Source: Paracoccaceae bacterium (GTDB lineage: Bacteria; Pseudomonadota; Alphaproteobacteria; Rhodobacterales; Rhodobacteraceae). From it: DNA of 64,000 bases. Positions within the stretch are counted from its first letter, which is position 1. The number at the start of each line of letters is the position of its first letter. Position numbers and translations under genes: made by a program. Below, piece after piece: positions 4,246-16,702 of this stretch. The stretch is from the NCBI GenBank assembly GCA_902543185.1, contig CACBXB010000002.1:1-64000 (forward strand), read 5' to 3'. Below the pieces are notes generated by a model that worked only from the letters and a program-made list of their open reading frames with translations, did no database searches and was not told the DNA's origin.

Positions 4246-5184
4246 TTAGTTCATCCAATTTTGCCAAATATTTTTATTTTCTGCGATCCACTCCGCAGCC
4301 ACTTCTTCTACTTTTCTACCTTTTTCGTCTACTTCTAGGATTGCTGCGTTTTCATCTGCATTCGTTAGCTGCATAGCTTTAAACATTTTGAAGGCAGCAG
4401 GCCACTTATCTTCAAACCCTTTCGAAACTATTTTTTGCACTTTAGCTTGTTCGAAGCCACATGCAGTTTCTTTTTCTTGAGATTCTTCGATGCACTTACC
4501 TTCGATTGGATTCCATTCAACCCAATTAAAATCATATGCTGCGAACAACCAATGAGGTTGCCAAAACATCATAATGACTGGTTCCTCCGCTGCTAGTGCT
4601 GACTTCAGTTCTGCTACCATGGCTCCTTCACTACCGCCTGGGATCGGTTCAAATGGCATCTCGATACTTGCAATTATATCTCTAGAACGTGTTCCCCAAC
4701 TGGCAGGATATGTTATCAATCTACCTTTTGGGAAAGTCTCAGCAGAGCCAAAGGCTTGAGCACATTCATAAAGCGCTTTGTAGTCTGGCAAACCTGGGCA
4801 CCTTTCATCCATATATGGTGGGTAAATCCAACCCTCTTTAGGAGAAAGCCCCAATTCTCCAACTACTACTATGTCTCCTTTGTCCACCAAGCCATCATAC
4901 AAGTCGCCAACATTATTTGTCCAAACTTCAGTGGAAAGATTGATATTGCCGGAAGCGATGGCGGGATGCTGGGTGATAGCATCAGAAACAACTATCTCTA
5001 CGTTATAACCCATTTCCTCTAATAAGCCTGCAGCTACATGCGTTGAAAAGTGCTGACCTGTCCAATCTTGAATTGTTACTTTGATCGGATCATCACTTTC
5101 AGGAACATTACCTGCGAAAAGTGCCTGACCTGATACTATAAACGCTGTTGCAGCAATGCTGAATAGCTTAGATATTTTAAACAT
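4246..5184 (-). CDS. Periplasmic binding protein for quaternary amine/TMAO-type substrate
   Basis: A 312-residue OpuAC/ProX-type substrate-binding protein. The start at 5182-5184 is supported by an AGGGAGGAA ribosome site; a longer in-frame start (5232) lacks one. Residues 1 to about 24 form a signal peptide ending at ALFA-GN. The mature part has many aromatic residues that could cage a methylated cation (IQDWTGQH, TEVWTNN, MFWQPHWLF, NWVEWN), as in ProX and TmoX. It is the first gene of the transporter operon, divergent from the BetI-like regulator. Glycine betaine, choline, TMAO and DMSP are all possible ligands. Confidence 0.85.
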   Translation of the reverse strand: MFKISKLFSIAATAFIVSGQALFAGNVPESDDPIKVTIQDWTGQHFSTHVAAGLLEEMGYNVEIVVSDAITQHPAIASGNINLSTEVWTNNVGDLYDGLVDKGDIVVVGELGLSPKEGWIYPPYMDERCPGLPDYKALYECAQAFGSAETFPKGRLITYPASWGTRSRDIIASIEMPFEPIPGGSEGAMVAELKSALAAEEPVIMMFWQPHWLFAAYDFNWVEWNPIEGKCIEESQEKETACGFEQAKVQKIVSKGFEDKWPAAFKMFKAMQLTNADENAAILEVDEKGRKVEEVAAEWIAENKNIWQNWMN

Positions 5185-5259
5185 TTTTTCCTCCCTGAAA
5201 ATGTGCGGTAATTCACTTTGAGCATCGCTCATTTATCTTTCTAAATGTACGTAAAACTT

Positions 5260-5288
5260 ACCATTAGACAAATATTTGTGTCAATGGT
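5260..5288. promoter_or_regulatory. Candidate BetI-type operator dyad
   Basis: An interrupted dyad, ACCATT ... AATGGT, surrounds AAATATTT between the divergent transporter operon and the TetR/BetI-like gene; the two arms are off by one base from perfect symmetry. The position suits an autoregulatory operator. A related AACCATTGGTCA string occurs at 7072-7083, upstream of the GMC oxidoreductase gene. Binding is inferred. Confidence 0.4.
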
Positions 5289-5352
5289 TGTTTATATCGA
5301 TTATTCTAATATTATCGAGCTAAAATAGAAGCTTACTACTGGAGTTGCCTCA

Positions 5353-6036
5353 ATGCGCACAAACTCAATCCGAGAGATCAGACGCGGAGAACTTTCTCGA
5401 GCAGCCTTCGAGGCGGTTATTAGATATGGATTAAGAAAGACAACACTGGAAAAGGTAGGGAGTATCGCGGGTGTCTCTAAAGGTGTTGTACTTCACCATT
5501 TCAAAGATAAAGGCGCCTTGCTCGAGGCGGTTTTCCGTAGATCGAATATGCTGTTAAGTGGATCTGTCGTTGAGCTTTATCGTTACGCAAAAACTCCTTA
5601 TGAGCGACTTTGGGCAATTATATTTGCTAATTTTTGTGATAGTATATTTAATCGGCCAGTGTGCCAAGCTTGGGTATCTTTAATCTCTGAAGTGCCACAT
5701 AACAAAGGGTGCCAACGCGTCCAGCTCATAAATAATGAACGCATCAGAAGTAACCTCATACATGAGTTGAAACATTTTCTGCCAGCAGATGAGGTGCAGG
5801 AGGTGGCAAGTCATATTGGAGTTCAAATTGATGGCATCTGGGTACGCGCTGGCCTTCTACCTCAAATCATTGACACGAGCACTGCAATATCTGAAATGGA
5901 ATTTACTATATCAAAGATGCTGCCATACGATGAAGTTAGCGCTGCTAGACATAAAGAGGCTCGCAAGAAGATTGAAACAGTAGCAGATATTGCTTTAGGT
6001 TCAAAAATATTTAAAGAAAAATTTCTTAGAGTCTAA
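5353..6036 (+). CDS. BetI-like TetR-family transcriptional repressor
   Basis: A 227-residue regulator with an N-terminal TetR helix-turn-helix (about residues 10-55, including GVSKGVVLHHFKDKGALLEA) and a ligand-binding C-terminal domain. Similarity to BetI extends through the C-terminal domain (QIDGIWVRAGLL compares with LIDGLWLRAAL of BetI). BetI represses choline-to-betaine genes and is released by choline. Its place divergent from the transporter and near a choline-dehydrogenase-like gene suggests it controls both. It is longer than BetI by about 30 residues at the C-terminus. Confidence 0.85.
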   Translation: MRTNSIREIRRGELSRAAFEAVIRYGLRKTTLEKVGSIAGVSKGVVLHHFKDKGALLEAVFRRSNMLLSGSVVELYRYAKTPYERLWAIIFANFCDSIFNRPVCQAWVSLISEVPHNKGCQRVQLINNERIRSNLIHELKHFLPADEVQEVASHIGVQIDGIWVRAGLLPQIIDTSTAISEMEFTISKMLPYDEVSAARHKEARKKIETVADIALGSKIFKEKFLRV

Positions 6037-6054
6037 ACATTTAATATTCACAAT

Positions 6055-6993
6055 TCAGGCTGAATTTGTGCTAGTGCCTCTGAGTGCTAATAGTGGTTCC
6101 AACATGCTTGCTCCTGCAATAAGCAAGACACCAATTAGTTCCCGAATGCCAAAAGGTTCACCTGCCAAAAGGGCTACTGAAATAGCCCCAACGATAATTT
6201 CAGTCATTAACAAAAGCCCGACAATACCTGGACTAAGATACTTAGGTCCCCAAAGTGACGCGTAGGTTCCTGGCAAAACAAGAAGTGCCATGAAAATAAG
6301 CAATAACGGCAGCGCTGGTAAAATCTGTTCAATATCTGGCATTTGACTTGTTGCTAGCAAGAAGGCAGCACCTGATGAAAAAATCAGTGACCACTGAAAA
6401 AATCCGGCAGTTAGCTCGATGGCTGAGTGGCTTTCAGACATCCGTATTCGCACCATTGCAACAGCCCAAAGGAAGCCAGATCCAATACCAAGCCAATCTC
6501 CTATATTTTGGGGGATGGGGAACCGCGCTCCTAGACCAAAAATGGTCAACATACCTAGTATGGCCAGGACCATTGCAATTACACGGCTCGGGGTTATCAA
6601 ATCACCTAAAAAGATACGGGCCAATATCGTCGCCCATATTGGCGTGAGATAAAATAATAATATTGCACGCACAACATCGGTGTACACTATTGACGTGGAA
6701 TATAGTAATAGTGCCCCGCCTGATAACATCGTGGTAAGCTGTAATGAAATCCCACCCTCTTTGACATGCTGCCATCGCAATATGAACACTGGTATGAGGC
6801 ATATTGTTGGTATCAGAAAATAGACAACAGTAATCCACAGCCCGTTAATACCAGCTTCTTCGAGGGCTCTGAGGGGGATCCAAAATAGTCCCCATACTGC
6901 TCCAGCATAGAGACATGCGAGTTTAGCTTTGAATTCAAGGGAAGTGGAAACATGTAGCATCGCAGTGGCCGCCCTGGCATTAAATTTCCGCAA
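6055..6993 (-). CDS. EamA/DMT-superfamily permease
   Basis: A 312-residue, strongly hydrophobic protein with about ten predicted transmembrane helices in two EamA repeats, typical of drug/metabolite transporters. It is convergent with the BetI-like gene (18 bases apart) and divergent from the GMC oxidoreductase operon, sharing that 206-base promoter region. Family members export or import small metabolites; the substrate cannot be told from sequence. The start is uncertain because a second ATG lies 11 codons further in. Confidence 0.8.
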   Translation of the reverse strand: MRKFNARAATAMLHVSTSLEFKAKLACLYAGAVWGLFWIPLRALEEAGINGLWITVVYFLIPTICLIPVFILRWQHVKEGGISLQLTTMLSGGALLLYSTSIVYTDVVRAILLFYLTPIWATILARIFLGDLITPSRVIAMVLAILGMLTIFGLGARFPIPQNIGDWLGIGSGFLWAVAMVRIRMSESHSAIELTAGFFQWSLIFSSGAAFLLATSQMPDIEQILPALPLLLIFMALLVLPGTYASLWGPKYLSPGIVGLLLMTEIIVGAISVALLAGEPFGIRELIGVLLIAGASMLEPLLALRGTSTNSA

Positions 6994-7199
6994 TCAAATT
7001 TCAGAAGTGTTGGGATGTTTCGCGTTCCAAATCAAGATTAATTTGCACAACCTTCCTATTATTTCATAACTAACCATTGGTCAGTATATTGTCAAAGAGT
7101 AAGTATACATATAAAATGGTAAATATTAATTTTCCATGCGGGTAATGATCAAATTGAGATCCATGGAATTAGTGAAAATTTGTTTGGAAAAGACCAAAA

Positions 7200-8867
7200 A
7201 TGGAATTCGACTACATAATTATAGGCGCAGGTTCAGCGGGCTGTGTTTTGGCTCACCGTCTTAGCAGCGATAAAAGTAATCGGGTTCTATTGATTGAAGC
7301 GGGTCCAGAAAATGGGGCGCTTTCTCTTAAAATGCCAGCAGCCGTTTTATCGAACTTGACAAGCACAAAGCACAATTGGGCGTTTAAAGGTGAGCCTGAG
7401 CCTGAACTAAATAATCGTGTCATTCAACATGATCGAGGTAAAACGATAGGTGGATCTTCATCCATCAATGGTTTGGTCTTTATCCGTGGTCACGCCTTAG
7501 ACTACGAAGGTTGGCAACAGTCTGGATGCCCAGGCTGGGGATATGCAGATGTTTTGCCCTACTTCAAACGTATGGAAAACTACGGTGGTGGGGAAGATGA
7601 TTTTCGTGGTGTAGATGGTCCTTTGCACGTTCACCGCGCGGATCCTCAGGATCCAATCACACTGGCTTTTATAAAAGCGGGTCAGGAGGCTGGTTATCCG
7701 AGGACAAATGATATTAGTGGCTTTTGTCAGGAGGGGTTCGGTGTCTCGGATAGGACTGTTTATAATGGTGAACGCTGGAGTACTGCACGTGCCTACCTTG
7801 ATCCAGCTCGAAAGCGATCAAACCTGAAAATTCAAACGGGGTCACTTGTTCATAAAATTACTTTTGATGGAACCAAAGCGGTAGCGGTGACCTATATGAC
7901 TGGAAGTGGGGCTTTAAAGAGCGTTCATGCTAGAAAAGAAATTATTCTAAGTGCGGGTGCGGTTGGATCACCTCATATATTAATGTTATCTGGTATCGGT
8001 CCCGCTGCACATCTTCAGGATATGGGGATTGATGTTCTTCATGATTTGCCAGGCGTAGGTCAAAACCTGAATGACCATCCTGATTTTGTCTTGAAGTATA
8101 AATGTAAACAGCCTGTTTCAATTTGGCCGAAAACAAAGGGGCTAGCCAAACTTGGGGCAGGAATTCAATGGATAGTAACACGTCGTGGCATTGTTTCATC
8201 AAATGGATTTGAAGGTCTGGGTTGTATTCGATCAGGCAAAGATGTGGATTACCCTGACCTTCAGATTATCATCACTCCGATTGCAGTCGATGACTCTACA
8301 TGGACGCCACTGCAAGAGCATGCCTTTCAAATTCATGTGGGATTAATGCGTGCTCATAGCCGCGGAAGCATCGAGTTACGATCCTCTAATCCGAACGATC
8401 CTCCCCATATTTTGGTAAATTATCTTAAAGACGATCGCGACAGAGACAGAATGCGCAAAGGCATTCGCTTGGTTCGGGATCTGGTAGACCAACCCGCCTT
8501 TTTTGACCTCAAAGGTGACGAGATTTTTCCAGGATGTGATGTGCAGTCCGATGAGGATCTTGACCAAGTCTTGAATTCACATACGACAACACAGTGGCAT
8601 CTTTCATGCACGGCTCGTATGGGGGCAGTAACAGACAAAGGGGCAGTCGTTGATGCTGGTGGTTGGGTCCACGGTTTATCTGGTTTGAGGATCGTGGATG
8701 CTTCCATAATGCCTGCTGTTACCAATGGTAATACAAATGCCCCTACTATCATGCTAGCTGAAAAACTAAGCGATGAAATCTTAGGACGTAACCCTTTGCC
8801 AAGGATTGATGCAGATATCTGGCAGAACACAAATTTAGAAAACATGCGAACCACAACGGAAAAATAA
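7200..8867 (+). CDS. GMC-family oxidoreductase, choline dehydrogenase-like
   Basis: A 555-residue flavoprotein, nearly the same length as E. coli BetA. It starts with the FAD-binding motif IIGAGSAGCVLA and contains the GMC signature GKTIGGSSSINGL, the second GMC motif GAVGSPHILMLSG, and the catalytic-region His (HLSCTARMG) and Asn (NGNTNAPTIM) of choline dehydrogenases. It would oxidise an alcohol, plausibly choline or a related amino alcohol, to the aldehyde. It is first in an operon with the VOC and GcvT-like genes. No betaine-aldehyde dehydrogenase is nearby, so a strict BetAB pathway is not shown. Confidence 0.85.
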   Translation: MEFDYIIIGAGSAGCVLAHRLSSDKSNRVLLIEAGPENGALSLKMPAAVLSNLTSTKHNWAFKGEPEPELNNRVIQHDRGKTIGGSSSINGLVFIRGHALDYEGWQQSGCPGWGYADVLPYFKRMENYGGGEDDFRGVDGPLHVHRADPQDPITLAFIKAGQEAGYPRTNDISGFCQEGFGVSDRTVYNGERWSTARAYLDPARKRSNLKIQTGSLVHKITFDGTKAVAVTYMTGSGALKSVHARKEIILSAGAVGSPHILMLSGIGPAAHLQDMGIDVLHDLPGVGQNLNDHPDFVLKYKCKQPVSIWPKTKGLAKLGAGIQWIVTRRGIVSSNGFEGLGCIRSGKDVDYPDLQIIITPIAVDDSTWTPLQEHAFQIHVGLMRAHSRGSIELRSSNPNDPPHILVNYLKDDRDRDRMRKGIRLVRDLVDQPAFFDLKGDEIFPGCDVQSDEDLDQVLNSHTTTQWHLSCTARMGAVTDKGAVVDAGGWVHGLSGLRIVDASIMPAVTNGNTNAPTIMLAEKLSDEILGRNPLPRIDADIWQNTNLENMRTTTEK

Positions 8868-8886: not shown

Positions 8887-9288
8887 ATGATCGGGTATGT
8901 GATGGTTGGCACAAATGACCTGACTAAGGCAACAAAATTTTATGATACCATTTTAGCCCCACTTGGACTTCTGCAGGCTGAACGAACTGCAACTTATACG
9001 GCTTACGCGCCAAATGGGTCAAAAGATGCTATTGAATTCTACGTTACTATTCCCTTCGATCAAAAATTTGCAACACGTGGAAATGGAACAATGATTGCGC
9101 TTGCAGCCCCAACAATGCTTGCGCTCAAGCAGTTTCATAGATTTGGACTATCGAGTGGCGGTGCCGATGAGGGTGCCCCTGGCCTCCGTGAAGAAGGCAG
9201 TGATGTCTGCTACGCTTATATTCGCGATTTAGATGGAAATAAAATTTGTGCATTTTATGACGGAGTAAAAAAAGCTGTTGGCTCATGA
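8887..9288 (+). CDS. VOC-family (glyoxalase/dioxygenase fold) protein
   Basis: A 133-residue single-domain protein beginning MIGYVMVGTNDLTKATKFYD, typical of the vicinal-oxygen-chelate fold, with the late strand motif YIRDLDGNKICAFY. Many relatives are uncharacterised; some act as glyoxalases, lyases or dioxygenases. AAGGA lies eight bases before the start; a nearer upstream ATG opens only a two-codon frame. Its stop overlaps the next gene by four bases (ATGA), so it is co-translated with the GcvT-like enzyme. Confidence 0.8.
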   Translation: MIGYVMVGTNDLTKATKFYDTILAPLGLLQAERTATYTAYAPNGSKDAIEFYVTIPFDQKFATRGNGTMIALAAPTMLALKQFHRFGLSSGGADEGAPGLREEGSDVCYAYIRDLDGNKICAFYDGVKKAVGS

Positions 9289-10436
9289 ATGACTATCCCG
9301 CTCTTAATCCTGCCAACATTTTTGCAACTTATGTCGGCAGCAACGAACTGTCGCCATTTCATTACTGCTACGCAAATGAAAATACCGTATTACGCCTGGC
9401 AGCTGGGCGTTTTTATGCCCACCACAACGGAGAGGATGTGATCTCCAGCTATTGGGCACTGAGAAAGCAGGCAGCACTTTTTGATGTGCCAGAACGCCCT
9501 GTTGAAATTGCTGGCCCGGATGCTGTTGCATTTTTAGAGTACCTAGTCGCTAGAAAGATCAAAGATATGGAAGTAGGTCGTGGGCGTTACGTATTAATAT
9601 GTACCCATGAGGGTGGTATTTTTATGGATGGCATCCTATTCCGATTAGCTGAAAACCGCTTTTGGTTCGTACATCCAGATGGTGATCTAGATATGTGGCT
9701 CCTAGCTCATAGCAGGGGCTTTGATGTAAAGGTGAGTGATCCAAAATCTCGGGTATTGCAGTTGCAAGGGCCAAAGTCTTTTCGGATCATGCAGGATGCA
9801 ACTGAAGGCGCTATTACGCAAAACTTTAGGTACTTTCATTCTGGGCTTTTCAATTTTGATGGTCAGCAAGTCTATGTTTCTCGCACTGGGTGGACTGGTG
9901 AATTAGGGTATGAACTTTACACCTTAGGCGAACATACAGATTGCCCCCGTCTGTGGGATCACTTGATGCGAAAAGGTGAACCTTATGGAATGGTATTTAG
10001 CTCGATGCAGGCCATGAATATTCGTAGGATTGAGGCTGGTATTTTCGACAGCGGTACCGATTTCAATAGCTCCATGACCCCCTTTGAGTCAGGATTAGAG
10101 AAATTTATTGATCTTAGCAAAAAAGGTTTCATGGGTCGTGATGCATTGAGGGTCGCCAACTCCGGAGCCCGGCTTTTTGGTCTAAGCTGCAAAGGTACTA
10201 CCCCTAATGCTAGCGATCTTGTGTTCAGTGACAATGCGCCTGTAGGAAAAGTCACTACTGGTGCGTTCTCACCGTATTTGGAGTGTGGCATAGGATATGT
10301 CCGGTTTGATAAACCCAATGACTGGTCTGGCAAAATACTGACTTTACGATCGCATAAATTTGGTGAGGTGAGTTGCACAATCGTTGATTTACCATTTTAT
10401 GATCAGGAAAAACTCTTGCCCCGTGACACAAAATAA
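9285..10436 (+). CDS. GcvT/DmdA-like aminomethyltransferase family protein
   Basis: A complete 383-residue GcvT-fold protein: N-terminal folate-binding domain (to about residue 280) and a C-terminal barrel (from GARLFGLSCKG). Such enzymes pass a methyl or methylene group from an amine or sulfonium compound to tetrahydrofolate. It is the third gene of the GMC-VOC-GcvT operon and overlaps the VOC stop by four bases. It is a paralogue of the truncated gene at 1-973. It differs clearly from the characterised DmdA of Ruegeria, so DMSP is only one of several candidate substrates. Confidence 0.85.
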   Translation: MNDYPALNPANIFATYVGSNELSPFHYCYANENTVLRLAAGRFYAHHNGEDVISSYWALRKQAALFDVPERPVEIAGPDAVAFLEYLVARKIKDMEVGRGRYVLICTHEGGIFMDGILFRLAENRFWFVHPDGDLDMWLLAHSRGFDVKVSDPKSRVLQLQGPKSFRIMQDATEGAITQNFRYFHSGLFNFDGQQVYVSRTGWTGELGYELYTLGEHTDCPRLWDHLMRKGEPYGMVFSSMQAMNIRRIEAGIFDSGTDFNSSMTPFESGLEKFIDLSKKGFMGRDALRVANSGARLFGLSCKGTTPNASDLVFSDNAPVGKVTTGAFSPYLECGIGYVRFDKPNDWSGKILTLRSHKFGEVSCTIVDLPFYDQEKLLPRDTK

Positions 10437-10541: not shown

Positions 10542-11627
10542 TTAGCCTAGAGAGCGACCTTCAGCTGCGAGTTTATTATTTAGTAGCTGACGAACCTTCA
10601 CGCCTGCTCCGTCTGCTCCAAGTGTTACTTCCAGATAATCAAGCCCACGTGGGTCATTTTCGACATTTTTTTGGAGTTTCTGAAGCAGGTCTTTATCCTC
10701 ATTAAAAGCTGCCACTACACTTGCTTTAGTTTTCTCCGCAACCTCTTGAGTTATTTTTGGGACATCAAAAGCGGCCCCCCAAAAATAATGGGTTTTGCCT
10801 TTAGTGGATGGAGTTACTATGTGACACCCTCTCATAATGAAATCTGATCGACGACCTCTCTCGGGCTTTGGATCATGTACTTTCCAATCAGAAAATGAAA
10901 TTGCAAGTGATGGCATTGTTCCCTTTTGAACTCGCTTGATTGGCTTGTCTTCAGGCAAACCCATCCCTGCGCAAAACAATGGAGAAAGGGGAGCTAAGTC
11001 AAATTCTTGTTCGTAACAAATTGACTCGCCCTCCCAGTAAGTATCTGGAGCAGTAATCCAATCATCTTGCTTGAAAGTATTTTTATGTAAAAAAGCAATG
11101 TGAGTTAAATCCATTACATTTTCTCGGATTAAAATCCAATTTGCGGCTACTTCCATGTACCCTGTTATGAAACTCCAATCTTTATCCACCTGATATGCAA
11201 CATCAGGAGGATCTCGATCAATAGCCTCTGGGTCACCCATCCATATCCATACAAATGCACCAGCTTCCCTCACAGGGTAAGAAGGAATTTGTGCTGTTTT
11301 GGGCATCATTGTTTGAGTGGGTGCCTTAGTACAATTCCCATTCGTATCAAACTCCATACCATGGTAGGGGCATATAATTTTCGAACCACTTACATGTCCC
11401 TCTGATAAAGGGGCCCATCTGTGCGGACAGCGGTCATAAAGTGCCGCAGCTGTTCCATCTTCTAGGCGATAAAGAACAACAGGTGTTTCAAGCAACCATC
11501 GTGTTATTGGTTTAGTGGTTACCTCTTCACTGTAGGCAGCAACCCACCACATATTACGGGGATAATTGTCCACTAACATACCATTGGGTATTCGTTGACC
11601 CTTAGGGTTTTTCCCTTGCATATTCAT
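10542..11627 (-). CDS. Rieske non-heme iron oxygenase, vanillate demethylase-like
   Basis: A 361-residue oxygenase subunit. The Rieske cluster site (CPHRWAPLSEGH ... CPYHGMEFD, about residues 66-92) binds a 2Fe-2S cluster. The mononuclear iron site follows at ENVMDLTHIAFLHKNTF, near residue 170, with Asp and two His in the usual spacing. Relatives such as VanA carry out O- or N-demethylation, releasing formaldehyde, and need a separate reductase; none is adjacent. Its start overlaps the stop of the PanB-like gene by four bases (ATGA), so the two are translationally coupled. The substrate is unknown. Confidence 0.85.
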   Translation of the reverse strand: MNMQGKNPKGQRIPNGMLVDNYPRNMWWVAAYSEEVTTKPITRWLLETPVVLYRLEDGTAAALYDRCPHRWAPLSEGHVSGSKIICPYHGMEFDTNGNCTKAPTQTMMPKTAQIPSYPVREAGAFVWIWMGDPEAIDRDPPDVAYQVDKDWSFITGYMEVAANWILIRENVMDLTHIAFLHKNTFKQDDWITAPDTYWEGESICYEQEFDLAPLSPLFCAGMGLPEDKPIKRVQKGTMPSLAISFSDWKVHDPKPERGRRSDFIMRGCHIVTPSTKGKTHYFWGAAFDVPKITQEVAEKTKASVVAAFNEDKDLLQKLQKNVENDPRGLDYLEVTLGADGAGVKVRQLLNNKLAAEGRSLG

Positions 11628-12487
11628 TTTAAGTTCCTCTTTAATAATTCTTTTTTGAATTTTTCTATTTCTTCATCTTTCATTTTATAACTGTGATCTG
11701 CGTCTGGAAACTTGCCTGTTTGAACCTCATGGACATATTCTGAAAAAGCCTTGGTAGCAGCTTCACTCAAGTTAGCATAACGCTTCGCAAATTTTGGTTT
11801 AAAAGTATCAAAAGCGCCTAACAAATCATATCCATTTAACAACTGGCATGTTCCAGCTGATCCTGCACCAATTGAGAATGTGAAAATAGATATAGCGTCG
11901 TCTACGGCCTTTCCTACTTCATAGGGCATTGCTTCTATTTCCAGACCAATTGCGCCAGCGCCCTCAATGGCCTTTGCATTTTCAATAATTTCGATAGCCG
12001 CATCAGTTGTTTTGCCCTGCATCTTAAAACCACCGAGAAGATGTACTTTATGAGGTAGAAGTCCGACGTGGCTCATTATGGGAACTCCTGCATCAGCGAC
12101 TGCTTTAATTATACTTGTTCCCTCTTTCCCAAGTTGCAACTTAAGCGCATCAGCTCCGCTTTCTTTCATCATTCGTACAGCATTTTCTACGGCATTTTCT
12201 TCAGTCGCATATGAGCCGTATGGCATAGATGCTATCGTCATAGTATTTGGGGCACCGTTACGAACTGCAAGGATATGCATTATCATTTGATCAACTGTAA
12301 TCTGCAATGTATTTTGATGGCCATGTAATGTCATTCCAAGACTATCTCCAACGCCAATAATATCAACGCCAGCGCGCTCCGCCCAGGCAGCTGACATGGC
12401 TTCCCCGACAGCTACCATAGCTAGACGTTCGCCATGGGCTTTTTTTTCGGTTAATTGGGGTATTGTAAGTTTGCTTTCTCGCATCAA
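11624..12487 (-). CDS. PanB-like (ketopantoate hydroxymethyltransferase fold) protein with altered metal site
   Basis: A 287-residue protein collinear with E. coli PanB (shared GDSLGMT, VRxGAPN, HxGLxP, KFAK). By hand alignment with E. coli PanB, metal ligand Asp45 is kept (Asp48) and catalytic Glu181 is kept (Glu185). Metal ligands Asp84 and Glu114 are replaced by Ser87 and Gln118, and the IGAGNVTDGQ loop is changed to IGAGSAGTCQ. It is therefore unlikely to be the pantothenate-pathway enzyme. The coupling to a Rieske oxygenase suggests a catabolic step, perhaps a related aldol or C-C bond reaction. The true function is unknown. Confidence 0.8.
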   Translation of the reverse strand: MMRESKLTIPQLTEKKAHGERLAMVAVGEAMSAAWAERAGVDIIGVGDSLGMTLHGHQNTLQITVDQMIMHILAVRNGAPNTMTIASMPYGSYATEENAVENAVRMMKESGADALKLQLGKEGTSIIKAVADAGVPIMSHVGLLPHKVHLLGGFKMQGKTTDAAIEIIENAKAIEGAGAIGLEIEAMPYEVGKAVDDAISIFTFSIGAGSAGTCQLLNGYDLLGAFDTFKPKFAKRYANLSEAATKAFSEYVHEVQTGKFPDADHSYKMKDEEIEKFKKELLKRNLK

Positions 12488-12576
12488 AACTCTTAAAGTT
12501 GTTCCAATTGGAACAATAATTAGTTATTTAATTGAGAACTGACAAGTGAATAAATCAGGAAGAATTTTGAATACTA

Positions 12577-13068
12577 TTGGATTTTCAAAATATGAGTAGA
12601 GTAAAAGTGGAACTAGATTATTCAAATATTTTTGAATCTGTTGAATTTCCTGATGCTTATAAAGTTTCATACTTGGCAAATGCCATCGTTTTTCCAACAT
12701 ATGAGGATGTTAGAAAAGATTTTGGTTTAGTCAGAGCAGAGTATCATCTGTTGTTATGTTTGGCACATTATTCTGAGCTGACAGCGCAGGATGTTGCTAG
12801 GATTACTCGGCGGCCACGAAATTCGATTTCTAGAGCGGTCCATAGAATGTTGGATTTAGGTTTTTTGAAGCGGGTCCCGGATCCAAGTGATGCAAGACAA
12901 GCAAAATTACAAATAACTAATGAAGGCAAAATTATGCATAAGAAAGTTTCAGAATATTTAGTAGCCCGTGAAGCTGAGATTTTCAGTGTCCTCTCTGAAA
13001 GCGAACGCAAGCATTTTAGAGATTTAATCAGAAAATTAGCAAATTTTGCATCAACGCTCAAACGCTAG
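12577..13068 (+). CDS. MarR-family transcriptional regulator
   Basis: A 163-residue winged-helix regulator. The recognition region TAQDVARITRRPRNSISRAVHRML and the wing LKRVPDPSDARQAKLQITNEG fit MarR proteins. It is divergent from the PanB-like/Rieske pair across a 90-base gap and convergent (four-base overlap) with the molybdopterin reductase gene, so it probably controls the PanB-like/Rieske operon and itself. The TTG start at 12577 has AGGAAGA about 12 bases before it; an ATG at 12592 is an alternative. Confidence 0.85.
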   Translation: MDFQNMSRVKVELDYSNIFESVEFPDAYKVSYLANAIVFPTYEDVRKDFGLVRAEYHLLLCLAHYSELTAQDVARITRRPRNSISRAVHRMLDLGFLKRVPDPSDARQAKLQITNEGKIMHKKVSEYLVAREAEIFSVLSESERKHFRDLIRKLANFASTLKR

Positions 13069-15290
13069 TTTCCTTGGTATTTTTCAACTTCCACTTCGAT
13101 ATTATGTGCTGCAGAACCTTGCCCTAAATCTGACGTGCCTGTATCTGCTGTTAGCACATTAGGGTTTCCAGAAATGTCTAAGCCGTCCTCGGCTGGTGAA
13201 AACCAAGCACCCGTCGCTAATGAGATGACTCCGGGTATAATTGTTTCCTGAGGCCGTAAAGTAGCAAGACAAGAGCCTCTAGAATTCCAAATTTTGATCA
13301 AGTCACCCTCTGAGATGCCTCTTTTTCGTGCATCTTGAGGGTTCATAACTAAAATGGCATGTTTGGATATTTCCTCAGCAGCAACTTGTAGCTGGCTATG
13401 CAATTTATCGTGAGGTTGTGGCGAAAGTAAACGAAGAGGAAACTTCCGGTCCAAACAAGGCTTATTAAAAATGGGATGGCCAGGGATTTCTGGGTAATTA
13501 AATTTTGCAATTTTTTCTGAATAGATTTCAATTTTTCCGGATGGTGTGCCAAGTGGGTTCTTTAATGGGTCATCACGGAAAGCTTTGAAGGGGACGTAAT
13601 CCTCTTCATCTTGGTCAATCGACATTCTCTCGAAATTTTTTTCTTTAAGTGTTTCGAAGTCTGCGACGTTAATTCCCTGACTTCTAGCCTGCTTATAAAA
13701 CTTATCATAAATGCCTTCAATCCATTCCTCTGATGACTGATTTTCTGTAAATTTTTCCTCGCAATTAAGCTTTTTCGATAGGGCCGTAAAAATATCATAA
13801 TCATTTTTTGCCAGTCCCACTGGTGGTATCATCTGAGGCATATAGAATATGTATGGATCGCCTTTTGCCCAGCCTATATCTGACCGCTCAAATTGTGTGG
13901 TGGCTGGGAAAACGATATCTGCTCGCTGAGCTGTCGCTGTCCACCAGGGTTCATTAACAATTATGGTCTCAGGATGTTGCCAAGCATTATTGAGACGGTT
14001 TAGGTCTTGGTGATGATGGAATGGATTTCCACCACACCAGTAAACAAGTTTTATGTCTGGATAAATCCGCTTTTCACCGTTGAAATTGTAGGGTCCGCCT
14101 GGATTTAATAGCATGTCTGCGATGCGTGAGACCGGTATAAAATCAGATATTGGATTTTGCCCCTGCTCAAAAAGAGGGCCTTGCATTCTCTGTGCTGTTT
14201 TACCAACATTACCAATCGCACCGTATCCAAAGCCAACACCTCCACCAGGTAGGCCAATTTGACCTAGCATTGCCGCCAAGACGCAAGCCATCCAGAAAGG
14301 GTGCTCCCCATAACGCGCTCTTTGCAATGACCATGAAACACAAATTAGCGTTCTGCCCGATGCCATGCTTCTGGCTAAGTCTCTAATTGTAGAAGCATCT
14401 ATGCCGGTTTCTTGAGAAGCCCATTCTGGAGTCTTTGCAGAGTGGCCGTCTTCCCCAAGAAAATATTTTTTGAATAATTGGTAACCTGAAGAGTGAGTAT
14501 TCAAAAACATTTGGTTGGCCAGTTCCTCAGTTTCAAAAACGTAAGCGATAGCCAACATTAAAGCCATATCTGTACCAGGAATTATTGGTAGCCAATTAGT
14601 TTCCTTGGGGCTATCGTCTTGTTGCGGGCTAATTGAGATCATATTCTTCCGCAGCTGTTTGAAATTTTTGAAATGGTTTGAAACGTCGTGTTCTGTGGAT
14701 CCTCCCATACTGACTTGCGAATTTTTGGGATTGATACCACCAAAAATAATTAGGTTATCAGTATGTTTTTCTATCAACCTCCAGCTATTTATCTCACCCC
14801 AAGTTACTTTATGAAAATTTAATCCTAGTACATGGGGGATAATAGCTTGTGCTGCACCAGTGCTATAGCTGGCATAAGAACTAACATAGCCGCCTATAGA
14901 ATTTAAGAAACGATGTAATTGGCTCTGCGAATGATGAAATCTGCCTGCACTAGCCCAACCATATGAACCACCAAATATAGCTTCATTACCAAAATCATTT
15001 TTTACCCGAATTAACTCACTAGAGGCGAGGTCAATGGCATCTTCCCATGACAAAGGAACGTATTCATCATTTCCTCTGGCGTTAGTTGTGTTTTTTTTGA
15101 GCCAACTCTTTCTAACGTAGGGTTGGTCAACCCGCTTTGAATGATGAACAGCATTTGGTACAAGCTGTGAAATATTTGGTGGTGCAGGATCGGCGTGGAA
15201 AGGTTCAGTATCAATTATTTTGTCATTTTCGACAAAGACATTGAAAGCTCCCCAATGGCTAGTAGTTACTTTTGAAAATTTCTTTCCCAT
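13065..15290 (-). CDS. Molybdopterin oxidoreductase of the DMSO/TMAO/biotin sulfoxide reductase family (BisC-like)
   Basis: A 741-residue protein matching BisC/TorZ along its length (AHWG-like TTSHWGAFNV at the start, VRKSWL near residue 60). The molybdenum Ser is in SYASYSTGAAQ near residue 145, and the C-terminal dinucleotide-binding domain includes GDLIKIWNSRGSC. There is no signal peptide or twin-arginine motif, so it is probably cytoplasmic, as BisC is. It would reduce an S-oxide or N-oxide (biotin or methionine sulfoxide, TMAO). The start was set at the ATG at 15288-15290; a TTG two codons upstream is possible. It follows the URO-D-like gene on the same strand. Confidence 0.85.
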   Translation of the reverse strand: MGKKFSKVTTSHWGAFNVFVENDKIIDTEPFHADPAPPNISQLVPNAVHHSKRVDQPYVRKSWLKKNTTNARGNDEYVPLSWEDAIDLASSELIRVKNDFGNEAIFGGSYGWASAGRFHHSQSQLHRFLNSIGGYVSSYASYSTGAAQAIIPHVLGLNFHKVTWGEINSWRLIEKHTDNLIIFGGINPKNSQVSMGGSTEHDVSNHFKNFKQLRKNMISISPQQDDSPKETNWLPIIPGTDMALMLAIAYVFETEELANQMFLNTHSSGYQLFKKYFLGEDGHSAKTPEWASQETGIDASTIRDLARSMASGRTLICVSWSLQRARYGEHPFWMACVLAAMLGQIGLPGGGVGFGYGAIGNVGKTAQRMQGPLFEQGQNPISDFIPVSRIADMLLNPGGPYNFNGEKRIYPDIKLVYWCGGNPFHHHQDLNRLNNAWQHPETIIVNEPWWTATAQRADIVFPATTQFERSDIGWAKGDPYIFYMPQMIPPVGLAKNDYDIFTALSKKLNCEEKFTENQSSEEWIEGIYDKFYKQARSQGINVADFETLKEKNFERMSIDQDEEDYVPFKAFRDDPLKNPLGTPSGKIEIYSEKIAKFNYPEIPGHPIFNKPCLDRKFPLRLLSPQPHDKLHSQLQVAAEEISKHAILVMNPQDARKRGISEGDLIKIWNSRGSCLATLRPQETIIPGVISLATGAWFSPAEDGLDISGNPNVLTADTGTSDLGQGSAAHNIEVEVEKYQGN

Positions 15291-15391
15291 AAACAATAAC
15301 TCAAAGAATTTTTTCTTCTCTTATGTATCGTCTCAGACAAACTTAATTTTTGTTGTATTTCAAGACTGATTTTCTTGGAAAGTAGTTTCTT

Positions 15392-16702
15392 TCAATTGGT
15401 CTGTCTTAAGATTTTGGGGCAGTCATGCACCTGTTTTAGAATGAGCTCTACAAGACCAAACTCTGATTCACCATTTAGATCCTCAAAATAAAGATGGCTG
15501 GGCCAAGGCTCATTTACAAAATTATTTAATGGCAAATCAATTTGTTCACAAACCTCTTTAATCGCTTTTACATAGTCTTTAGCCGCGTTACCTAACTGCT
15601 CTCTGGCTAATTCTAAATCTTCTATACTATTTCTATCGACTTCGCCGGAGCCGATACCTGTTGTTAGTGGTATATTTCTTTGCAAAGACTGATCTCGATA
15701 AAAAGCAACATCAACTTTATCAGCTTCTAGTCGCATCATGAATTTCTGACAGACACTAAATTTGATATCAGTCAACTCATTCAGGTCTACTTTCGTGGAT
15801 GTGCCGGTGCTTTTTGAACTCCTGCGTGAGCGTCTACTTTTACTTTGTACATTTGCTACGTAGTCACCTCTGTAATTACAATCAAATACTCTTCCATTCC
15901 AAAGGTTTCCATCGTCCATTCTTTGAATTGATCTTATGGACATCGTTTTACAATTTTCTGGCCCAATAAAAAAAGGAGAACCTGAAGCATCCGAAAGCTC
16001 TACCCATCCATTAGGAAAAACGGTCAAATGGTGTTCAATCCAAGGTACTATGACTTTGTCAGCAAGATGATCAAGTAAAGCGTTTACGTGATCCGGATCA
16101 TTTACAACATCTGCTAAAAGTGGTTCTTGACCGTATATATCAGCCGCAAGACTGTAAGGTGCTGAAATCTGGAGCAAGGGCTCCATACCAGTTAATTCTT
16201 CCGTAACACGCAATATATCATCAATTATTTTTGGAATACCTGTACTGAAATCTGGCGTTTCTAATTCAAAGCAGTTTTCTTTGTTGATCAAAGCTTCATC
16301 AGGGTCAGATCCAGGAGGGAATTTATCTGGATACATCATTTTTTGGCCTAATACTTCGCAAGAAAAAGCATAGAGGGCCCAAGTCATGTACAATTTTTTT
16401 ACACCTAATAGCCTACCAACAGTAAGGTTTGCGCGCACATACCTATAGGGATCAGTTTTATAGTATTCAGCGGAAGTGACACCATACAAGTCATTCAAGA
16501 TGGCGAGAGCTAACATATGCACAGAGGCTGTTGAATGGACCTCATCAGCTGGAGCAAGAATAGAAAAGTTTTCATCAAAATTACCAGCAATTGCTGCATC
16601 GAATACAGATTTGATCTCTGTTTTTGCGTCTTCACTACCAGCTTGCCATGATTTTAAAAGGTGAAGACCTTTAGGATAGGAATAGGTTGCTAAATTGATC
16701 AT
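15392..16702 (-). CDS. URO-D-fold (uroporphyrinogen decarboxylase family) protein, possible methyltransferase
   Basis: A 436-residue protein with URO-D family features in its middle part (LQISAPYSLAADIYG, then DPDHVNALLDHL, then DASGSPFFIGPENC). Catabolic members of this family (MtaA, CmuA-like) transfer methyl groups between corrinoid or folate carriers and thiols. The His-X-Cys zinc motif of MtaA is not visible, so methyltransfer is unproven. A Ser/Arg-rich stretch (SKSRRSRRSSKSTGTSTK, about residue 290) looks like a flexible insert absent from ordinary HemE. It is not the heme-pathway enzyme. It lies 101 bases upstream of the BisC-like gene on the same strand. Confidence 0.7.
   Translation of the reverse strand: MINLATYSYPKGLHLLKSWQAGSEDAKTEIKSVFDAAIAGNFDENFSILAPADEVHSTASVHMLALAILNDLYGVTSAEYYKTDPYRYVRANLTVGRLLGVKKLYMTWALYAFSCEVLGQKMMYPDKFPPGSDPDEALINKENCFELETPDFSTGIPKIIDDILRVTEELTGMEPLLQISAPYSLAADIYGQEPLLADVVNDPDHVNALLDHLADKVIVPWIEHHLTVFPNGWVELSDASGSPFFIGPENCKTMSIRSIQRMDDGNLWNGRVFDCNYRGDYVANVQSKSRRSRRSSKSTGTSTKVDLNELTDIKFSVCQKFMMRLEADKVDVAFYRDQSLQRNIPLTTGIGSGEVDRNSIEDLELAREQLGNAAKDYVKAIKEVCEQIDLPLNNFVNEPWPSHLYFEDLNGESEFGLVELILKQVHDCPKILRQTN

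Follow-up and report, generated by a model that had tools for sequence, protein, structure and literature searches.

A PanB-like protein with a changed metal site, encoded next to a Rieske oxygenase gene in a Paracoccaceae bacterium, and its oxygenase-linked relatives

The window analyzed here is a stretch of 64,000 nucleotides from a Paracoccaceae bacterium (assembly GCA_902543185.1, contig CACBXB010000002.1, positions 1 to 64,000). In it, the gene for a PanB-like protein is directly followed by a Rieske oxygenase gene and is opposed by the gene for a MarR-family regulator (Table 1). This is the divergent arrangement described in a first-pass annotation made from the sequence alone, and the four-base overlap noted there is equally present, the stop codon TGA of the PanB-like gene sharing bases with the ATG of the Rieske gene. 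The ATGA overlap likely leads to translational coupling of the two genes. The PanB-like reading frame opens with a TTG at 12487, followed by an ATG at 12484, which is the likelier start and would give a product of 286 amino acids. The Rieske protein scores 75.5 bits with PF00355 and 142.3 bits with PF19112; both the C-x-H and the C-x-x-H motif can be read in its translation (as CPH and CPYH), the VanA_C domain is present, and the top-scoring solved structure is that of the dicamba O-demethylase DdmC. The GcvT-like gene convergent with this pair may correspond, at this locus, to the DmdA-like gene of other clusters.

Table 1. Positions of the features in the window and of related genes elsewhere in the same genome (G000)
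Feature	Position	Strand	Basis or remark
GcvT/DmdA/TMAO-demethylase-like folate-binding protein, convergent	9285..10436	+	profiles; same type near L004, L023
Rieske oxygenase with VanA_C domain	10542..11627	-	domain profiles; best solved structure DdmC
ATGA start/stop overlap of PanB-like and Rieske genes	11624..11627	-	sequence read
PanB-like enzyme (PF02548), type I	11624..12487	-	ORF call, profile match, alignment, AF2 model
Codon Ser87, PanB-like gene	12227-12229		
Codon Gln118, PanB-like gene	12134-12136		
Codon His146, PanB-like gene	12050-12052		
Codon Glu183, PanB-like gene	11939-11941		
Codon Glu185, PanB-like gene	11933-11935		
Perfect palindrome TTGTTCCAATTGGAACAA, putative MarR operator	12499..12516	.	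sequence read, locus comparison
MarR-family regulator, divergent	12577..13068	+	ORF and profile match
Type III copy L002/L142	G000:C10:34886-35464		MocD-like, MocE-like, and sugar ABC binding protein genes beside
Type III copy L003/L143	G000:C31:6799-7305		
DmdA gene off the cluster	G000:C3:165916-167013		561 bits
DmdA gene off the cluster	G000:C6:69719-70795		561 bits

In the profile search, the PanB-like protein scores 284.5 bits with PF02548 against a cut-off of 28.7 bits, and it also passes TIGR00222, the panB equivalog of NCBIfam (245.9 versus 207.55 bits). With E. coli ketopantoate hydroxymethyltransferase (KPHMT; 1m3u) it is aligned nearly over the full length by HMMER pairwise comparison (residues 8-267, E 5e-49). 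The AlphaFold2 (AF2) model (pLDDT 91.7; 37 sequences) superposes on 1m3u_A with Z 32.8 and an rmsd of 1.6 Å over 233 residues, residues 6-239 of the model lying on 3-235, so that the PanB fold previously assigned to this protein is borne out by the predicted structure. In E. coli KPHMT, Asp45, Asp84, and Glu114 are taken here to be the Mg ligands and Glu181 the base. Of this ligand set only Asp45 is retained in the window protein (as Asp48), Asp84 being replaced by Ser87 and Glu114 by Gln118; the catalytic glutamate is kept as Glu185. The HMMER alignment gives these replacements, which had first been aligned by hand. Since the model superposes on 1m3u_A, a misalignment of the ligands is unlikely, and on the predicted structure this explanation was rejected.

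Relatives were collected from GTDB species genomes, in which 145 stretches were confirmed and the best 80 of these analyzed. Among those 80, 71 loci (L004-L074) encode proteins of at least 63% identity, here designated type I, and nine loci (L075-L083; 40-45% identity) encode canonical PanB with all ligands. Type I hosts, by genome labels, are Alphaproteobacteria, Chromatiales and Granulosicoccaceae, and Acidimicrobiia, with one record labeled Oceanobacillus. Residues were compared in an alignment of 110 proteins, from which L003 and L071-L074 were omitted as incomplete or broken; type I comprises 68 rows therein (the window and L004-L070). Position 84 (E. coli numbering, used throughout unless stated) is Ser in 41 and Ala in 27 type I rows, and position 114 is Gln in all 68; Asp45, Lys112, and Glu181 are retained in every row and His136 in 66. 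Two residues have been gained in all 68 rows, namely, a Glu at position 179 (Glu183 of the window protein), two residues before the catalytic Glu, and a His at position 142 (His146 of the window protein). The 33 canonical rows read V, I, L, or M at position 179 without exception and Gln at position 142 in 32 cases, and only positions such as these two are independent, because the canonical rows were grouped by their ligands. A further canonical set of 20 loci, five of them already in the 110-protein alignment, uniformly reads D/D/K/E/H/Q/V/E. As Ser or Ala at 84 and Gln at 114 occur throughout type I, the residue changes are not due to chance or sequencing error, and the notion of a lone odd gene is ruled out by the number of loci at this identity among the best 80 of 145. 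P198 has been changed to Phe in all type I rows and V214 to Asn in 99% of them; therefore, the pocket is remodeled. Variants of E. coli KPHMT at I202, I212, and V214 alter the substrate range, according to PMC7610986. The gains of Glu183 and His146 go beyond the first-pass annotation, as does the wider oxygenase-linked branch described below. One type I copy, in a Roseovarius MAG (L074; G109, G198, contig C56), has its PanB-like gene in pieces, and possibly its Rieske gene as well; decay or an assembly error is possible there.

The coupling to a Rieske oxygenase recurs outside the window. Among 66 type I loci with at least 1.2 kb of downstream sequence, 35 have the Rieske gene directly downstream on the same strand, and a Rieske gene (E <= 1e-60) is present in 38 of 50 genomes carrying the PanB-like gene; in the other 12, some of which are incomplete assemblies, no orthologue was found at that threshold. 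Within 149 family genomes, the PanB-like gene (at least 68%) and the Rieske gene each occur in five, and these are identical genomes; as the two genes are adjacent there, their co-occurrence is not independent of linkage. Ten small alphaproteobacterial genomes (1.5-2.3 Mb) have no Rieske gene beside the PanB-like gene: six of them carry a Rieske orthologue (74-77%) on another contig, and in four none was found at E <= 1e-60. Around these unlinked Rieske genes, nothing of the type I clusters was found apart from genes remotely related to their GMC, aldehyde dehydrogenase, and ligase members (named by eye). Of 50 type I loci, 33 have any oxygenase gene within 3 kb of the PanB-like gene, and 11 of the 17 without one in that range come from the small-genome group. 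Where Rieske is absent, a PhyH-type Fe/2OG oxygenase gene can adjoin the PanB-like gene (L023, L024, L030, L039, L040, L041, L043). The gene row of L058 is PanB-like, PhyH, Rieske, and CitE-like, and that of L044 from Ruegeria marina is MocD-like, MocE-like, PanB-like, and Rieske. Neighbors at the 43 type I loci with 4 kb of flanking sequence on each side are Rieske (24), MarR (20), DmdA-like (18), PhyH (12), CitE-like (7), GntR (6), and SBP56 (3). A plasmid collection contained no PanB match above 60% identity (best 49.8%) and no Rieske match at E <= 1e-80.

The palindrome between the divergent PanB-like and marR genes follows the regulator gene across loci. Its 16-base core, with up to three mismatches allowed within 1.3 kb upstream of the type I loci, was matched in 30 of 30 loci with a MarR gene versus one (L068) of 41 without, four of the latter having less than 200 bases upstream. 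Five Acidimicrobiales loci have the palindrome upstream of a DmdA-like gene, which is the first gene of the cluster there. The MarR protein would, by this distribution, be expected to bind the palindrome. In the genome of the window, there are one exact site, one site with two mismatches (beside ribE/nusB-like genes, named by eye), and 24 sites with three; a wider MarR regulon, to which the exact and the two-mismatch site do not point, may still exist in this genome.

A Glu-x-Glu pair at positions 179 and 181 is found in two further groups of PanB paralogues. Type III comprises the other PanB-family matches in the same 149 genomes, whose alignments begin at residue 64 or beyond with 31-39% identity; 35 loci were sampled, 34 of them from the 37 matches of this kind and one from the genome of the window. 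Both glutamates and His136 are present in 35 of 35 (the residues of L131, L135, L142, and L143 were already known before this count), Asp84, Lys112, and Glu114 are absent in all, the Asp45 loop is gapped, the Lys112 position is Tyr or Phe throughout, and His142 is found in a single locus. Within 3 kb of these 35 genes lie MocD-like desaturase-type genes (23), MocE-family ferredoxin genes (24), sterol-desaturase-like hydroxylase genes (7), and Rieske genes (2). Any MocD/MocE, sterol-desaturase-like, or Rieske gene within that distance is found at 33 of the 35 type III loci versus none of 26 canonical PanB loci, whose flanks of 2.0-4.1 kb per side are somewhat shorter than those of most type III loci; the two misses are L157 and L143, the latter truncated where its contig ends. 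The MocE cut-off was passed by one of two MocE-type proteins scored, and DmdA-like genes were found near none of the 35 loci. In type II (L088, L089, L090; about 48% identity), the pair is combined with Cys at 84 and Gln at 114, and His is present at position 146 of the window numbering in 3 of 3 rows. The queries used for type III revealed no oxygenase gene near the three type II genes; at L088, a gene annotated as sterol desaturase family lies 1.2 kb upstream. One of the type II genes is carried by a plasmid of Methylobacterium nodulans and has a gene of the sterol desaturase family in its vicinity. In trees from two samplings, calculated by a quick method and containing some long branches, the canonical rows lie together on the same side of a branch whose SH-aLRT support is 99. 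The genome of the window itself holds two type III copies besides the type I gene, both lacking the Asp45 loop; the sugar ABC binding protein encoded beside L142 is only distantly of the rhizopine type.

Whether the type I protein still serves pantoate synthesis was judged from a genome-wide PanB search covering 50 of the 71 type I loci and a PanC search in 34 genomes with the PanB-like gene, that of the window included. PanC is present in 13 of the 34 and was not found in 21, namely, in the window's own assembly and in 20 of the 33 others. The absence from the own assembly is weak evidence when taken alone since that assembly is 75% complete; PanC is also missing in the near relatives G149-G152, in the ten small genomes, and in Ruegeria marina (G178). 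In none of the 21 PanC-less genomes was a canonical-type PanB match found at E <= 1e-15. A canonical PanB was found in ten of the 13 PanC-bearing genomes as well; in G153 it is a fragment beside PanC, and in seven of the nine with an intact copy it adjoins PanC. Several cultured relatives possess such a separate canonical PanB, and R. marina does not. The view that the protein is a usual biosynthetic PanB, able to tolerate the residue changes and placed here by accident, would be in line with the passed equivalog cut-off and with the retention of Asp45, Lys112, and the catalytic Glu, as well as with three PanC-bearing draft MAGs (G162, G168, G173) in which no canonical PanB was found and where, therefore, a role of the PanB-like gene in making pantoate is conceivable. 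In view of the residues, the distribution of PanC, and the gene context, this explanation was nevertheless rejected and is considered very improbable: the gene goes with the Rieske gene and not with panC, and the first-pass annotation was right to set its context against that of biosynthetic panB. With high confidence, the type I protein is not a biosynthetic PanB and is linked to oxygenases, and the earlier claim of a repurposed, Rieske-coupled enzyme is well supported by the family-wide residue changes, the shared genomes, the missing PanC, the separate canonical PanB of several cultured relatives, and the palindrome tracking MarR. The PanB cut-off of NCBIfam (TIGR00222/NF001452) is passed by both type I proteins tested, those of the window and L008; genomes without PanC are therefore probably annotated with a working PanB, and such calls are likely misannotations. 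At L080, L081, and L083, from sulfate-reducer-type MAGs, the canonical PanB gene stands beside genes for a PanE-like reductase and a TRAP transporter (neighbor families by eye, except for PanE in L082 and a DctM relative). As regards the GcvT-like neighbors, an assignment of the PanB-like gene to the known route of DMSP demethylation would be favored by their match to the DmdA model (E < 1e-100 in 22 of 26) and by the five of 11 singly scored proteins that pass the 410-bit cut-off of NF009133 with 438-483 bits. Six of the 11, however, fall below it, and the GcvT-like protein of the window reaches 175.9 bits. DmdA above the cut-off is encoded in 26 of the 34 genomes (in a few, it is the cluster's own), and 13 of them, including that of the window with two copies, have a strong DmdA (550 to 696 bits) encoded outside the cluster. 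We know of no PanB or Rieske step in the DMSP route, and a part of the PanB-like gene in it is regarded as extremely unlikely.

Ancestral PanB chemistry consists in the transfer of a C1 unit between 5,10-methylene-tetrahydrofolate and carbon, with the Mg site serving enolization of the 2-oxo acid; the partner oxygenase families are presumably able to oxidize methyl groups. The explanation preferred here, with a confidence somewhat short of even, is that the PanB-like protein is a repurposed C1 enzyme taking over a hydroxymethyl or formaldehyde unit from a methyl-group oxygenase, probably onto tetrahydrofolate; we infer the folate use, the direction, and the substrate. It would be a KPHMT paralogue that has lost ketopantoate synthesis and would be made together with the cotranslated Rieske enzyme from one operon, which MarR would control via the palindrome. 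The Rieske enzyme would act on a methyl group bound to O, N, or C in a small molecule and oxidize it to hydroxymethyl, and the PanB-like enzyme would remove the C1 unit as formaldehyde or iminium. Transfer of this unit to tetrahydrofolate would yield 5,10-methylene-tetrahydrofolate in the reverse half of PanB chemistry, acid-base work being done by the Glu-x-Glu pair and the conserved His. Two of three Mg ligands could be dispensed with because, in the proposed mechanism, no alpha-keto acid needs enolizing. Removal of a C1 unit would thus explain the loss of the Mg site, the retained base, and the DmdA-like genes in many type I clusters. Binding of a 2-oxo acid with one metal ligand may still occur since Asp45, Lys112, and, in nearly all rows, His136 are retained in type I. 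For the step from the C1 unit to folate by the PanB-like enzyme taken separately, the case is tentative and leans to the doubtful side. More doubtful still is the extension that the Glu-x-Glu branch is an unrecognized class of C1-transfer enzymes, serving several unrelated oxygenases (Rieske, MocD-type, sterol-desaturase-like, and Fe/2OG) by passing the hydroxymethyl unit directly to tetrahydrofolate with no free formaldehyde.

A folate-free C-C lyase is an unlikely, though serious, alternative to this C1 transfer. The oxygenase would then hydroxylate its substrate on the carbon skeleton, and cleavage of the hydroxylated acid by retro-aldol reaction, in the manner of class II aldolases, would fall to the PanB-like barrel. 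In PMC7610986, E. coli KPHMT with cobalt is described as a class II aldolase that is independent of a cofactor, and both the remodeled type I pocket and the CitE/RipC-like C-C lyase genes near seven of 43 loci would suit such a reaction. A class II aldolase, however, needs its metal, and two of the three ligands have been lost; type III lacks Lys112 and the Asp45 loop as well, and the Rieske partner is of the VanA/DdmC kind. An improbable alternative is a rebuilt site in which a transition metal would be coordinated by Glu183 and His146 together with Asp48 (and His140), making the protein a metal-dependent transferase of new specificity. The invariance of Glu183 and His146 in type I, the presence of the latter in type II against a canonical Gln, and the location of Glu183 and Glu185 on one strand of the AF2 model, which should turn the two side chains toward the core of the barrel, argue for it. 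Of the ligands placed elsewhere that were considered from the outset, a relocation to Glu183 and His146 is the form that may still apply. The Glu-x-Glu pair persists in type III without the Asp45 loop, with Tyr or Phe for Lys112 and with His142 nearly always missing; therefore, an acid-base role, as in the preferred C1 transfer, is favored over that of a new metal ligand.

Compared with known systems, the window protein shares with PanB/KPHMT (PF02548, TIGR00222, 1m3u) the fold, the full-length homology, and D45, K112, H136, and E181, but differs in lacking D84 and E114, in having the Glu at 179 and the His at 142, and in being tied to a Rieske oxygenase and MarR instead of a PanC partner. The newness lies in the PanB fold with a changed active site and changed partners. 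The Rieske protein resembles O-demethylases of the VanA/DdmC type in its domains and its best solved match; unlike these, it has no reductase gene directly beside it, and its partner is a PanB paralogue. With the folate demethylases DmdA, LigM, and GcvT, the clusters have in common the theme of a folate-dependent C1 acceptor and, in many cases, DmdA-like genes; these, however, belong to the GCV_T family and are extra genes in the clusters, distinct from the PanB-like protein. MocDEF acts in demethylation, and to our knowledge the moc set has no PanB-like member. Type III paralogues lie beside genes of the MocD-like desaturase type and the MocE ferredoxin family, but the binding protein near type III is far below the cut-off of the rhizopine model. 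MocDEF is part of rhizopine catabolism and is termed a "ferredoxin oxygenase complex" by Bahar 1998, as cited in PMC10107442.

A description of the PanB-like/oxygenase cluster was not found among open-access papers, including the accessible part of PMC7487153; as this covers open-access papers only, it is not proof of novelty. The earlier proposal of an undescribed catabolic route agrees with this result, and its catabolic part is plausible in view of the oxygenases and the MarR-type control. A homarine route was dismissed: one paper combining homarine, operon, and Rieske concerns, as far as its abstract shows, glycine betaine in Vibrio natriegens, and among the further papers listed there was no match to the cluster. 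A link of PanB to nicotine catabolism was also dropped, the review PMC3891541 describing vitamin supply. Betaine-lipid head groups and sulfonium compounds as substrates are guesses and are not claimed. If the C1-capture reading is true, it would explain how marine bacteria save methyl carbon from osmolyte-like or methoxylated compounds in oxidative demethylation, and the Glu-x-Glu pair and the operator motif would be handles for finding the substrates. The role of "extra PanB" genes becomes directly testable in cultured roseobacters.

Further genes of the window lie on either side of the cluster. A BisC/TorA-type S/N-oxide reductase gene (13065-15296, minus strand) adjoins the MarR gene, and a remote relative of URO-D/corrinoid methyltransferases is encoded close by (15392-16702, minus strand); among the fetched type I loci, these two neighbors are found in L004-L006 only. 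The region 4246-8867 encodes a betaine-type OpuAC binding protein, a BetI-like regulator, and a choline-dehydrogenase-like GMC oxidoreductase.
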